Shown here piece by piece: positions 9,214 through 22,666 of a DNA stretch of 44,908 nucleotides. Within the stretch, counting starts at the first letter, position 1; each line of letters starts with the position of its first letter. The notes beneath the pieces are model-generated. The model made no database searches and had not been told where the DNA came from. It was given only the letters and a program-made list of their open reading frames with translations. Made by a program: the position numbers and the translations under genes. The DNA is from Mesorhizobium sp. (lineage in GTDB: Bacteria; Pseudomonadota; Alphaproteobacteria; Rhizobiales; Rhizobiaceae): positions 1-44,908 of the forward strand of contig NZ_JAFKIC010000135.1 in the NCBI RefSeq assembly GCF_017306585.1. Reading direction: 5' to 3'.

Positions 9214-10014
9214 TCACCCCTTGCCCATCCCCTCCACATCCGCCGCGCTCAAGAACAGCAGCACCACATCGCTCATCCCGAGCAGCGGCGTGAAGGTCAC
9301 GATCGTGATCCCGCCTGTGGCGTTGGTGCGGGTCAGGCCTTCGGAATAGATGTCGATCGGCGGCTCCTCGTCGAACCACACGCCGTGCAGGGTCTCGCCC
9401 TGCCATTTCTCGCGGCCCTTCTCGAAACTCTTGAATGACAGCACGCTCTCGCCGGCCTGCACGTCGCCGCCGCCGCCATGGCGCACCACCACGCTGTCGA
9501 GCGCGCCGGGCGCGCCGCGGCCCATGATGGTGTCCGAAATGGCATCGGCCGGGATCATGCCGGTGCCCCAGGCGGATTGCTGCTGCGGCGGGCCGACCAG
9601 CACGCGCTGCGGATTGTCGCGCGTGCCCTCGCCGGTCACGCCGGCGGCCCACAGCCTGACCGCGTTGTCGAACACCTTGCCTTGCCACCACGCGGGATAG
9701 CGGCCGGTGAGATGCATGGCCCACTCCGCGCCGCCCGCCCTCGTCTTGCCGAGCTGGTTGCCGGCCATGAACAGGCGCTCGCGGTTTTTTGCGCCCGCCG
9801 CGTGAAATTCGGCCTGGCGTTGGTACGGCTTGTAAGCGGCCAATTGATTGCGGCTGCGCCGGCGCTCAAGCTCCGTCAGCAGCGCCAGATATTCCGCCCT
9901 GGCCGGAATGATCGACGGGTCCGTCGAGGAACGGCCGGAGGATGGCTTCGAGGGCCCGGATGCGGCTGCGGATCTCCTCATCGCTGAGCGTGTCCATTTG
10001 GTTGATGGCGGCAT
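9214..10014 (-). pseudogene. Terminase large subunit, N-terminal ATPase piece
   Basis: The frame encodes about 250 residues of the packaging ATPase. Seen in order are an adenine-binding YKPYQRQAEFH segment, the Walker A-type loop GNQLGKTRAG, VLVGPPQQQSAWG, and the Walker B-type strand LHGVWFDEEPP. The coupling strand GGITIVTFTPLLG follows. After DVEGMGKG a TGA occurs directly beside the inverted repeat. The nuclease half continues 2 kb downstream at 6665-7221. The start is uncertain: ATG at 10014 or 9981 both overlap the small-subunit gene, as is usual for these phages. It cannot make a working terminase as it stands. Confidence 0.78.
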
Positions 10015-10264
10015 CTATGTCCTTGGGCAGCACCGAGAGCACGATCTTGAGATACTGGTCCGGCTTGTCGGCCCGCACCTCGGCGATGACGCCGGCGCCA
10101 TGGGCGCGGAAATCGGCGCAAACGACGGCGAGAAAATCATCACCCAGCGTCTTTTTCGCGCGTTTGGGGCGAGGTTTGGTCGCGGCGGCCGGCGGCCTGT
10201 CGACTGGCTTGCGCCGCACGGCCCGTGCCTTGCGGGGCGGCCCGGCATCGGTTTGGTCAGTCAT
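9866..10264 (-). CDS. Terminase small subunit-like prophage protein
   Basis: From the ATG at 10264 the product is 132 residues. It has a basic, Pro/Lys/Arg-rich N-terminus, then a helical core with DDFLAVVCADFRAHGAGVI, LKIVLSVLPKDID and DEEIRSRIRALEAIL. Proteins of this form precede the large subunit in rhizobial prophages and serve as DNA-recognition subunits (assignment by context and pattern). It overlaps the upstream gene's stop by several bases and the large-subunit start by up to 149 bases. It remains intact while its partner is split. Confidence 0.6.
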   Translation of the reverse strand: MTDQTDAGPPRKARAVRRKPVDRPPAAATKPRPKRAKKTLGDDFLAVVCADFRAHGAGVIAEVRADKPDQYLKIVLSVLPKDIDAAINQMDTLSDEEIRSRIRALEAILRPFLDGPVDHSGQGGISGAADGA

Positions 10265-10634
10265 GGACCGGCGCCACGCTATCGGCCTCGCCGGCACCAA
10301 TCGCCGGCTTCTGCCTTGGCGGCTTTTTCGGCCCGGCGGGCTTCTTGCGCCTCTTGGCGGCTTTCTTCTTCGCGGGCTCCACGGGCCTTGCCGTTCCGGC
10401 AGGCTTCGTGGCCTTGAGCCGCGCCATGGCGAGGCCGACGAGCTGCCCGCCGATCGCGGCCTGCGGAAAGCCGAAGCCGCCGGCGACATTCCGCACCATG
10501 CCGATGAGCACACCGGGCATGACCGGCTCGATACGCCCCAGCCGCGCTTGCGGTGCCGCGCCCTCGAATTCGCCGATGGCGCTGACGATCTCGAGGCCGT
10601 CGTCATTGGTGATGATGGTGGCATAACGGGGCAT
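10257..10634 (-). CDS. Prophage-associated protein of unknown function with basic tail
   Basis: The ATG at 10634 is chosen because GAGGAGAG precedes it. It gives 125 residues, starting MPRYATIITNDDGLEIVSAIG. The second half (about 70-115) is a Lys/Arg/Pro/Ala-rich, low-complexity tail (KPAKKKAAKRRKK-like), suggesting nucleic-acid contact. It overlaps the start of the terminase small-subunit-like gene, so all three belong to one packaging-end operon. I do not recognise the N-terminal domain. Confidence 0.55.
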   Translation of the reverse strand: MPRYATIITNDDGLEIVSAIGEFEGAAPQARLGRIEPVMPGVLIGMVRNVAGGFGFPQAAIGGQLVGLAMARLKATKPAGTARPVEPAKKKAAKRRKKPAGPKKPPRQKPAIGAGEADSVAPVHD

Positions 10635-10753: not shown

Positions 10754-11623
10754 GTGGGACCATCGTCGACTCCAGCAAGGCTTGGCACGCCTCGAGCGCT
10801 CGTCGGCCTGATCGTGCTGTCGGCCCTCGTCGTCCCCTTATCTGCCTCCGGGACAAGGGCGCAGGCCAGCTCCGCCCAGCCAGGCTCGGACTGTACGGTA
10901 AGCCAAGCCGGATCAGTCTGCTTCGGAGAACAGCATTCCATCGCCCTGGATGCGAAGGGAGAGATCGATCTCCTGAACCAGATGTGGCAGCAAGGCTGGC
11001 GCGGAGTGAACCCTCTGCGCAATCTGCACCACGGCGTGATCGACGGGAATGTCTGGGAATATGTCGGCTTCACCTGGAAGAACACCGTGGAGTACGAGGC
11101 CAACCCGATCGAGAAAGCGGATCATATTTCAACGCCGGAAGGATTTACCTTCTGCGGTTACAGGATAGTCGAAATCAGCATGAACAATGGCGACCTGATC
11201 ATCGTACCCAGGGACGAAGACATCCTGGTCAATTTCGATGTAAAGCCGCATGGTGACACATTCAACCAGACCAGGGCCTGGCTGAATTTTGGTGTTCAGG
11301 CTCGATACTACAAGAAACTTCGGGCAGACGCGCAGCCGCCCACCGACTGCCAGGACGCATATTGGCGCACGATTCCCTACGTAAGCTCCAACATAACGTC
11401 GCCGCCCAGCGGCCGCCTTCCGGCTCAAAACGAGCCGCTGACAATGGCGATCCTGGGCGAAGGCGCCACGCAAGGATCCGCATGCGGCCATGCCGAGCAG
11501 AATGCCCGCATCGATGCGGCCAAGACGAACCAGACCGTCACCGGTATCGGAGCCTGCCAATGCACGCAGGACGACTCCAGGCAGCTTTGGGTCTGCAAGC
11601 TCCCCTACGCGGTTTCGCGATGA
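10754..11623 (+). CDS. Secreted protein of unknown function
   Basis: The 289-residue product starts at a GTG preceded by GAGGGGGGAG. A signal peptide is clear (RALVGLIVLSALVVPLSASG, cleavage about residue 37). The mature part has about eight cysteines, likely forming disulfides, and no further hydrophobic segment; CGYRIVEISMNNGDLIIVPRDE is typical of a beta-rich fold. No family was recognised. It is the first plus-strand gene beyond the prophage remnant and converges with the small RNA at 11672-11721. Confidence 0.6.
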   Translation: MGPSSTPARLGTPRALVGLIVLSALVVPLSASGTRAQASSAQPGSDCTVSQAGSVCFGEQHSIALDAKGEIDLLNQMWQQGWRGVNPLRNLHHGVIDGNVWEYVGFTWKNTVEYEANPIEKADHISTPEGFTFCGYRIVEISMNNGDLIIVPRDEDILVNFDVKPHGDTFNQTRAWLNFGVQARYYKKLRADAQPPTDCQDAYWRTIPYVSSNITSPPSGRLPAQNEPLTMAILGEGATQGSACGHAEQNARIDAAKTNQTVTGIGACQCTQDDSRQLWVCKLPYAVSR

Positions 11624-11671: not shown

Positions 11672-11721
11672 AAGACAAAACCCGCCACGGCGGCGGGTCA
11701 CTGGCGCAAATCAGCACCGTG
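11672..11721 (-). ncRNA. Candidate short RNA, copy 2 (downstream of crcB)
   Basis: Read on the minus strand, a start near 11721 gives an RNA of about 50 nt. It has a first hairpin in GGTGCTGATTTGCGCC (GGUGC pairs with GCGCC), a 5-nt linker, and a second hairpin CCCGCC-GCCGT-GGCGGG followed by TTTTGTCTT. The 16-nt first hairpin and the terminator stem are identical to those of the copy at 12413-12463. It has its own promoter at 11728-11756. It also lies just after crcB on the same strand and can serve as its terminator. No coding potential is seen. Confidence 0.62.
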
Positions 11722-11727
11722 GCTCTA

Positions 11728-11756
11728 AATGTACCATGGCTGCCCTCAGCGGTCAA
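11728..11756 (-). promoter_or_regulatory. Sigma-70-type promoter of short RNA copy 2
   Basis: On the minus strand TTGACC and TACATT are separated by exactly 17 bases. Spacer positions 3-10 read TGAGGGCA, the same octamer at the same place as in the promoter at 12470-12498. This argues for conserved promoter architecture or a regulator site. Confidence 0.6.
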
Positions 11757-11788
11757 CAAAAAAAGGAACAAATTCCTATCAACCACCC

Positions 11789-12220
11789 CTAAGCCTCCTC
11801 CTCGATCACGCTCTGCGCGATCTGGGCCGCGCCGCCATTGATGCGGGCGGCGATGACATGGCCGAGCGCCACCGCCCCCACGCACAGCACCACCGACAGG
11901 CCGACGTTCAGCGCCGCCCGACCAAACCCGCCGGCGCGCAGCAGGTCCAGCGTCTGCAGGCTGAAGGAGGAGAAAGTGGTATAGCCGCCACACAGCCCGA
12001 TCATCACGAACAGGCGCAGGCTGTCGGAAGCCGGATAACGCCCGCCGGCGAGCGTCAGCGTGCCGAAGAAGCCGATCAGCAGCGAGCCGCTGATGTTGAT
12101 GATGATGGTGCCCCAGGGCAGCTGGCTGCTCACCGGCAGCGCCCAGGTGGAGACGAGATAGCGCGCCAGCGTACCGAGCGCACCGCCGGCCATGACGATA
12201 AGACAGTTCGAAAAAGACAT
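11789..12220 (-). CDS. crcB: Fluoride channel CrcB (Fluc)
   Basis: The 143-residue membrane protein forms dual-topology dimers that export fluoride. Hallmarks are [13 protein letters not shown] near the N-terminus, [19 protein letters not shown] with the conserved Asn in the pore region, and [16 protein letters not shown] carrying the phenylalanine-box and Na+ site residues. Four hydrophobic helices are evident. The ATG at 12220 is chosen for its AGAGGA and the normal family length. The gene follows a fluoride riboswitch on the same strand, so expression should rise with fluoride. The short RNA copy 2 terminates the unit. Confidence 0.93.
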
Positions 12221-12239
12221 GCTCGATCCTCTGTTGAGG

Positions 12240-12344
12240 CGAGCATGAAGCCCGCCATGGCGGCGGGATCGACAGACTCCCACCGCGGTTTTCGCGGCAG
12301 GAGTCATCAGCCATCACTGGCGGTTTCGGGAGAACTCCATTCCC
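12240..12344 (-). promoter_or_regulatory. Fluoride riboswitch (crcB motif) with expression platform
   Basis: The minus strand of 12296-12344 reads GGGAATGGAGTTCTCCC, GAAACCGCC, a short loop, then GGCTGATGACTCCTGCC. This matches the fluoride aptamer layout: first stem GGGA/UCUCCC, pseudoknot strand, GGC closing stem, and the GGAGU/ACUCC long-range pairing. Downstream (about 12249-12265) a CCCGCC-GCCAT-GGCGGG hairpin lies between aptamer and crcB start and could control ribosome access or termination; it lacks a T-run. The family and its link to crcB are well established; the switching mechanism here is inferred. Confidence 0.9.
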
Positions 12345-12412
12345 ATCACTGGCAAGATGCCAGAGCTCCGGGCATCCGGCAAGGTGGCGCAGGCAAGCTT
12401 GGCGGGAGGCTG

Positions 12413-12463
12413 AAAACAAAAAACCCGCCTCGGCGGCGGGCCGTCGGCGCAAATCAGCACCAT
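12413..12463 (-). ncRNA. Candidate short RNA, copy 1 (upstream of crcB riboswitch)
   Basis: On the minus strand a start near 12463 gives about 50 nt. GGTGCTGATTTGCGCC forms the first hairpin, then GACGG, then CCCGCC-GCCGA-GGCGGG followed by TTTTTTGTTTT, a textbook intrinsic terminator. No gene upstream on this strand needs a terminator, since the neighbour at 12626 points the other way. The element is therefore best read as an autonomous small transcript. Its promoter is at 12470-12498. It may belong to a known rhizobial sRNA family, but I cannot name one with confidence. Confidence 0.68.
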
Positions 12464-12469
12464 GAAGAA

Positions 12470-12498
12470 ATCATAGCACAAATGCCCTCACCCGGCAA
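12470..12498 (-). promoter_or_regulatory. Sigma-70-type promoter of short RNA copy 1
   Basis: TTGCCG and TATGAT are separated by 17 bases on the minus strand. Spacer positions 3-10 are TGAGGGCA, exactly as in the copy-2 promoter. The -10 element lies 8 bases before the first conserved hairpin. Confidence 0.65.
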
Positions 12499-22592: not shown

Positions 22593-22666
22593 TCCCGCTT
22601 CGTCTAATGGTAGGACAGCGCCCTTTGAAGGCGTGAATCGTGGTTCGAGCCCATGAGCGGGAACCA
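22593..22666 (+). tRNA. tRNA-Gln (anticodon TTG), atypical
   Basis: The 74-base sequence folds completely. The acceptor stem is TCCCGCT/AGCGGGA and the D-arm is around TCTAATGGTAGGA. The anticodon stem GCGCC/GGCGT has loop CTTTGAA (anticodon TTG), and the T-arm is CGTGG-TTCGAGC-CCATG. The discriminator is A, followed by encoded CCA. The U1-A72 pair fits tRNA-Gln, but A73 replaces the usual G73, and pairs 2 and 3 are C-G instead of G-C. It may be a divergent extra tRNA-Gln. Confidence 0.88.

Follow-up and report, generated by a model that had tools for sequence, protein, structure and literature searches.

A Mesorhizobium family of very short units with conserved promoters and terminators: candidate small-RNA genes found on both sides of a fluoride module

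Two minus-strand units, placed on either side of a fluoride riboswitch and the crcB gene in a Mesorhizobium sp. contig (NZ_JAFKIC010000135.1; the whole stretch analysed, 44,908 nucleotides, is called the window below), are members of a multicopy family of very short units, non-coding in appearance, each having by sequence its own promoter and its own terminator. The first-pass annotation had proposed such a family from these two copies, and it proved real: it is found in 130 of 146 Mesorhizobium genomes, with the promoter in place in 194 of 238 distinct copies. The units are read here as a new amplified family of very short, co-regulated small-RNA (sRNA) genes that would act in trans. Taken as a whole, this reading is given somewhat better than even chances; that the units are transcribed, considered alone, appears more probable than that.

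The two units and the distribution of the family

Unit A, from the -35 box through the end of the T-run, covers positions 12418..12498 on the minus strand, upstream of the fluoride riboswitch, and is scored at 72.3 bits (E 4.5e-24) by the RNA model described below. Its -35 box, TTGCCG (12493..12498), holds a position conserved across the family, and so does its -10 box, TATGAT (12470..12475; extended -10 TGC-TATGAT); a 17-nt spacer, GGTGAGGGCATTTGTGC (12492-12476), separates them. Downstream are found the A of ATGG (12463), the 16-mer (12461-12446) and a terminator stem, CCCGCC-GCCGA-GGCGGG (12424..12440, with CCCGCC at 12440-12435 and GGCGGG at 12429-12424), followed by six Ts. The predicted RNA, of about 47 nt, spans 12417..12463 (minus strand), its putative start being placed 7 nt past the -10 box, and has a fold of -24.2 kcal/mol (z -3.3).

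Unit B (11677..11756, minus strand, from the -35 box to the T-run; 69 bits, E 8.9e-23) lies directly after crcB. It is composed of a -35 box TTGACC (11751..11756), a 17-nt spacer, GCTGAGGGCAGCCATGG (11750-11734), a -10 box TACATT (11728..11733; TGG-TACATT), the 16-mer (11718-11703) and a terminator formed by CCCGCC (11697-11692) and GGCGGG (11686-11681), with four Ts after it. The predicted RNA, terminator included, spans 11674..11721 (minus strand), with a fold of -23.8 kcal/mol (z -3.2). Upstream of the unit, at 11764..11777 on the same strand, lies the palindrome AGGAATTTGTTCCT, of the form AGG-N8-CCT, which is common to many relatives and missing from unit A.

The order common to the two units is: -35 box, 17-nt spacer, extended -10 box, a start at or beside ATGG or ACGG, GGTGCTGATTTGCGCC, a 5-nt linker, CCCGCC-GCCGW-GGCGGG and a T-run. 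This is the shared layout of 16-mer, linker, terminator and T-run that had been described in the first-pass annotation, and it is seen in the sequence. Including promoter and terminator, the unit measures about 100 bases. When up to three mismatches are allowed, the 16-mer has 2 matches in the window, both exact, against 0.97 expected, a count which, taken alone, says little. The sole tRNA found in the window, a tRNA-Gln (TTG), is located at 22593-22666 on the plus strand.

The family was searched by using a covariance model, R1, built on the RNA part alone of 48 copies, the two of the window included; as all 48 carry the 16-mer, its scores are biased toward that sequence, and distant relatives with another sequence could escape it. 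In the window's own genome, the match following the two units reaches only 24.1 bits and resembles an ordinary terminator. Within the 146 Mesorhizobium genomes, at E<=1e-9, 58 genomes hold one copy, 93 hold 1-3, 12 hold 4-9 and 25 hold at least 10, up to a maximum of 33. Since the remaining 16 genomes are without copies under the same threshold, the family is not essential.

The exact 16-mer is present in 31 of 61 related genomes, all of them Mesorhizobium, and its reversed control has 0 matches. When named genomes were scanned for the 16-mer together with CCCGCC, at least 120 stretches were returned; 78 of the 80 listed carry the label Mesorhizobium, several of them being copies of M. ciceri WSM1271, and the other two are MAGs of Hyphomicrobiales and Alphaproteobacteria. 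By using R1 at E<=1e-6, matches were obtained in 24 of 297 family-level genomes, 5 of which belong to Mesorhizobium and show strong scores; the 19 outside the genus do not exceed 35 bits. Fifteen loci outside the genus were inspected: they look like post-gene terminators or chance coding matches, the family spacer is absent from all, and in L263 alone there are separate boxes resembling -35 and -10. Among 289 class-level genomes, at E<=1e-8, the only match is the window's own genome. Unit B, used as sole query, found no match in 72,556 plasmid or 50,697 phage records; in IMG/VR, the unit pattern occurs in 24 stretches, many of them on contigs that also carry the terminase of this locus. The family is so far confined to Mesorhizobium, with no convincing member elsewhere. 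Scanning the units against Rfam 15 gave nothing at or above the gathering score, the weak matches being isrK (18.6 bits, cut-off 50) and P9 (16.4 bits, cut-off 43).

Genomic context of the copies

One copy, called founder-like here, lies upstream of, and points toward, a gene denoted RYAT, a small gene and a terminase large subunit gene (Terminase_6N; phrog_2, phrog_8771), RYAT being its usual downstream neighbour across Mesorhizobium. In the window, RYAT (PRYATIIT..., 125 aa) is located at 10257..10634 on the minus strand and has no Pfam or PHROG match; the small gene beside it matches a viral family of unknown function; the N-terminal part of the phage-type terminase large subunit is at 9214..10014, also on the minus strand (Terminase_6N 63.8 bits, cut-off 22; phrog_2). 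RYAT, the small gene and the truncated terminase make up a prophage remnant (9214-10634, minus strand), at a site common to many Mesorhizobium genomes, and close relatives of this terminase are carried by IMG/VR contigs. A 289-aa ORF (10754-11623, plus strand), which may be an insertion, stands between unit B and RYAT; in relatives, RYAT is nearer the element.

The units could be viewed as the terminated leader of a phage late operon, similar to the lambda PR'-tR' module, in which a constitutive promoter produces a short dead-end RNA until an antiterminator allows polymerase to enter RYAT and the terminase genes, the dispersed copies being by-products. This explanation is considered unlikely, although the founder locus gives it real support. 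The -35/-10 spacer, which in lambda is bound by Q, is conserved here. When 30 loci were fetched by RYAT alone, the element was found upstream in 27 of them, element finder and model agreeing, and the model's 40 matches there all share the strand of RYAT. As for the three loci without element, one begins at a contig end, and two have the element 1.5 and 1.8 kb upstream, past the stretch taken. The element finder produces some false matches (in L341, for example, one lies within RYAT) and includes units that have decayed, and the RYAT test was rerun with the model. The same arrangement is seen in all 31 copies for which RYAT was called as the next downstream gene, since each of them points into it, and in the element-fetched loci holding RYAT or terminase, where the element precedes RYAT (a biased sample). 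RYAT is present in 118 of the 146 Mesorhizobium genomes and in none of the 16 element-free ones, a co-absence that shared ancestry could explain.

Other findings argue against a terminated leader. The terminase of the window is a remnant. Among 31 more contigs whose terminases are related (from L413 on, 48-79% identical, unassigned hosts), no match exceeds 17 bits; the upstream sequence is short in some of them, and the search covered 67 of 80 terminase loci. Moreover, the dispersed copies do not share the orientation of the founder-like one: when the latter is excluded, the next downstream gene is on the same strand in 99 cases and on the opposite strand in 75, a count that, like the neighbour and intergenic counts that follow, rests on a simple in-house gene caller.

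The dispersed copies lie at many unrelated sites, their 509 neighbour genes falling into 189 clusters (duplicates kept). All 28 copies scoring above 30 bits in a one-contig genome are intergenic, one copy (L236) having been assigned the wrong strand in this count, and 14 of 232 copies are inside a called gene. Spread over so many sites, together with a copy number that varies from 0 to 33 among genomes, is what would be expected of a REP- or MITE-like element, selfish or neutral, which is dispersed, carries a promoter and a terminator by chance and makes a functionless RNA. A site occupied in one strain but lacking the unit in a relative points the same way, as do the decay of unit A in relatives and the subfamilies with promoter variants of their own, both described below. 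Against a repeat of this kind, no terminal inverted repeats (arms of at least 8 nt) were detected in the 4 copies tested, one imperfect 9-nt pair being seen in one copy. At the single empty site compared, no target duplication is visible. The pattern of conservation reported in the next section also weighs against it, and we rate this explanation as rather improbable. As a separate observation, made by eye, promoter matches in one genome (G066) are on the minus strand in 10 of 13 cases in the first half of the chromosome and on the plus strand in 5 of 7 in the second; in another (G120), the strands are mixed along the chromosome.

The fluoride module lies between the two units. The crcB gene (fluoride channel, 143 aa) is at 11789..12220, minus strand, with its start at 12220, and the riboswitch aptamer at 12291..12353, minus strand (RF01734, 53.1 bits, cut-off 34); unit A stops some 65 bases short of the riboswitch. 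Twin units around the module, as claimed in the first-pass annotation, are confirmed by these positions; a tie between units and module is not supported. The element is often present without crcB, and what lies between two or more direct copies at this locus may be nothing, crcB, a methyltransferase or a 70-aa ORF. Four crcB loci, the window's and those of three relatives, were aligned: unit B is present in all four, and unit A is intact solely in the window, two relatives being without its terminator and -10 box and the third without the 3' arm of its terminator. The pair is therefore old in the lineage, with unit A dispensable in the relatives. From the varied content between copies and the decay of unit A, the fluoride module looks like the cargo of a hotspot, and its link to the units looks incidental; we infer recombination between copies at this hotspot. 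A general fluoride-linked function was rejected, because crcB stands between copies in only part of the compared loci. The founder locus of genome G103 has six units (L292, L294-L297) packed into 1.9 kb on and about a methyltransferase gene, Ns separating them; this cluster may be a local tandem expansion.

Conservation of the promoter and of the RNA

The promoter was evaluated on 238 distinct copies selected by their RNA. The extended -10 box is found in 219 of them, the -35 box in 200, and both are in place in the 194 mentioned above; the same test at four shifted positions finds both boxes in only 1-3 copies. When the eighteen copies failing the -10 test were inspected by eye, 13 of them looked like chance coding matches, 3 are decayed (L024, L189, L190), and the spacing is altered in 2 (L007 and L170). 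In the reverse direction, a promoter-only search of four genomes gave 83 places, 60 of which were taken as loci; the RNA follows in 59, and in the sixtieth the core is shortened and the terminator present. Neither count agrees with a generic terminator repeat lacking a conserved promoter, the case which the first-pass annotation had set against its own proposal.

When 232 distinct copies that had passed a loose promoter filter were aligned on the 16-mer, information extended from about -53 to +48, and the flanks were not shared. According to their promoter, these copies may be grouped into an AGGAA type (84 copies), a TTGTTCTTGCTTTGTG type (44), a TTTCAACTTGACAGGTGA type (16) and others (88). 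The exact 17-base spacer that had been noticed in the first-pass annotation holds for units A and B and is not constant in the family, since 18 nt fits some relatives (by eye). Similarly, TGAGGGCA does start at the same place, position 3 of the spacer, in both units, but it is one variant only, a form of TG-N4-CA, and relatives carry TGACGGCA, TGACCTCA, TGCCCTCA or TGCCGGCA instead. A TAGGAATTTATTC-like motif is seen in copies of G120 that include L228, L233 and L235: one subfamily has it at the -10 box and start, another upstream of the -35 box, as if an operator had changed place.

Within single genomes, the promoter may be nearly invariant. A search of G103 with its 31-bp promoter, up to 3 mismatches being allowed, gave 38 matches, 37 of them identical and the last with one mismatch; in G120, 9 matches were found, each with 1-3 mismatches. 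Paralogous copies of the G103 promoter type (58 copies, chosen by the promoter with at most 4 substitutions, a choice that favours the promoter) show a mean pairwise identity that falls from 97% in the promoter to 89% over the first 13 nt of the RNA and 63% over the following 9 nt, and is 27-30% in the flanks. Choosing 30 loci from four genomes on their RNA alone gave 25 whose promoter equals the reference and 4 that differ from it at one position; the remaining locus (L215, at a contig end) was mislocated and its promoter not read. With L215 included, the promoter in this set reaches an identity of 94% and the first 13 nt, themselves selected for in this choice, 93%; the values are 61% for the next 9 nt and 29% upstream. 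Finally, in 38 orthologous pairs defined by their flanks, a few of which are overlapping copies inside one locus, the mean identity is 96.5% for the promoter, 91.7% for the RNA start (first 13 nt) and 91.6% for the flanks.

Constraint is clear on the promoter and modest on the RNA start and, within one clade, the promoter is conserved more than the RNA. As the first 13 nt diverge between orthologs about like the flanks, they lend weak support to a conserved pairing function. For the dispersed repeat considered above, a near-invariant promoter next to diverged RNA and flanks is difficult to accommodate, recent spread alone being insufficient to produce it. A further explanation is a DNA sponge or binding array, in which the promoter would titrate a regulator and immediate termination would yield the short RNA as a by-product. 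In its favour, conservation is highest in the promoter and spacer and, in the four genomes searched, these are almost confined to the units. Such an array has no need of the terminator and of the first 13 nt of the RNA, which are also kept, and we think it quite improbable.

The two predicted RNAs each fold as two hairpins, better than their shuffles, as indicated by the z scores given above; most of the folding energy should come from the terminator. Covariation was analyzed on 103 distinct rows: none of the 11 pairs of either hairpin is changed on both sides, and pairing does not exceed that of the shuffled control. In the first hairpin, GGTGC on the 5' side hardly varies, and the 3' arm drifts (GCGCC, GCACC, GCCCC, GCTCC). 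Because of this drift and of the lack of two-sided changes in these rows, the first hairpin is not supported as a conserved structure, and the 16-nt "hairpin" of the first-pass annotation is conserved chiefly as a sequence.

A leaderless micro-ORF starting from the ATG (M-V-L-I-...) is hardly credible: most copies, unit A among them, do have ATG where the RNA is predicted to start, but the triplet is ACG in unit B and ACG or AGG in other copies, codon changes mostly alter amino acids, differences in terminator-loop length break the frame, and the compared copies have no common stop codon. With neither start codon nor reading frame conserved, a leaderless peptide was rejected.

Proposed reading and comparison with known systems

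A family of co-regulated sRNAs acting in trans is favoured because the unit holds just what an sRNA gene needs and because the promoter is its most strongly kept part. According to this proposal, a sigma70-type extended -10 promoter would start the RNA at or beside the A of AUGGUGCUGAUU, and an RNA of about 47 nt would end at the strong terminator, so that each unit would be a stand-alone sRNA gene. Most genomes carry 1-3 copies, one of which usually lies upstream of, and points into, a terminase remnant; in some clades the family has been amplified and counts 10-33 copies at dispersed sites. The promoter, with its spacer and the upstream module, AGG-N8-CCT or TTTTGTTC, is under stronger constraint than the RNA, and the copies are therefore probably one co-regulated set. 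The RNAs would act in trans, the most likely means being base pairing by the conserved 5' end or the first loop. The twin arrangement at crcB would derive from a cargo hotspot between two direct copies, with no role in fluoride resistance. Sequence anatomy, family, distribution, conservation and genomic context are shown by the analysis; transcription, RNA ends, shared regulation and action in trans are inferred.

A more specific scenario may be put forward, as a speculation which we would not expect to hold in full: a phage-associated promoter-terminator unit would have been domesticated and turned, in some clades, into a genus-specific system of about 30 co-regulated, near-minimal sRNA genes, whose promoter would be kept almost invariant by selection while the RNA bodies diversify, so that one regulatory signal would fire many different 47-nt RNAs simultaneously. 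It is unusual for a promoter to stay constant over dozens of copies while their RNAs drift. If transcribed, the units would be, to our knowledge, among the shortest and most amplified sRNA gene families of bacteria. They occur in nitrogen-fixing legume symbionts for which few sRNAs have been described, and have no Rfam match above cut-off; the analysis also sets a real RNA family apart from an accidental neighbour, the fluoride gene.

No description of the family was found in the titles and abstract openings searched. In a survey of M. huakuii sRNAs, which reports 40 candidates, the shortest prediction being 51 nt, the available part of the text describes no such multicopy family (PMC5596092). 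Br-REP1 and Br-REP2 of Bradyrhizobium are intergenic repeats present in tens to hundreds of copies and partly found in transcripts (PMC5082802); as far as the available part of that report goes, they are palindromes described in 3'-UTRs, whereas the units carry a promoter and, in the 4 copies tested, no terminal inverted repeats.

The alpha-r14 family, or NfeR1 (RF02344; PMC7143759, seen in part), consists of rhizobial sRNA genes that occur in multiple copies and have a sigma70-type promoter motif in common. Found in Sinorhizobium and relatives, they share with the units both the multiple copies and the conserved promoter. According to the same partial description, alpha-r14 is about 123 nt long, with three hairpins and anti-SD motifs; the predicted RNA of the units is about 47 nt, and repeated anti-SD CCTCC loop motifs are absent from them by eye. 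RF02344 does not match the units up to E 10. The window's own genome holds five alpha-r14 copies above cut-off (L334-L338), on other contigs, whose upstream sequence is unrelated to that of the units (by eye); two of these copies are in tandem, 177 bases apart. Lacking an RF02344 match and differing from genuine alpha-r14 copies, the units were rejected as members of that family.

In the lambda PR'-tR' module, with its 6S RNA, a promoter with an immediate terminator lies upstream of the terminase genes. The founder-like copy resembles it, being a promoter plus terminator upstream of a terminase on the same strand; the dispersed units differ in having no fixed lead into genes, and no antiterminator is known in the Mesorhizobium case. 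In the partial accounts consulted, LhrC of Listeria is represented, as the units are, by several near-identical short sRNA genes per genome, in a copy number which we take to be below the 10-33 of the Mesorhizobium units. Unlike the LhrC family, the units have a promoter that is conserved more than the RNA.
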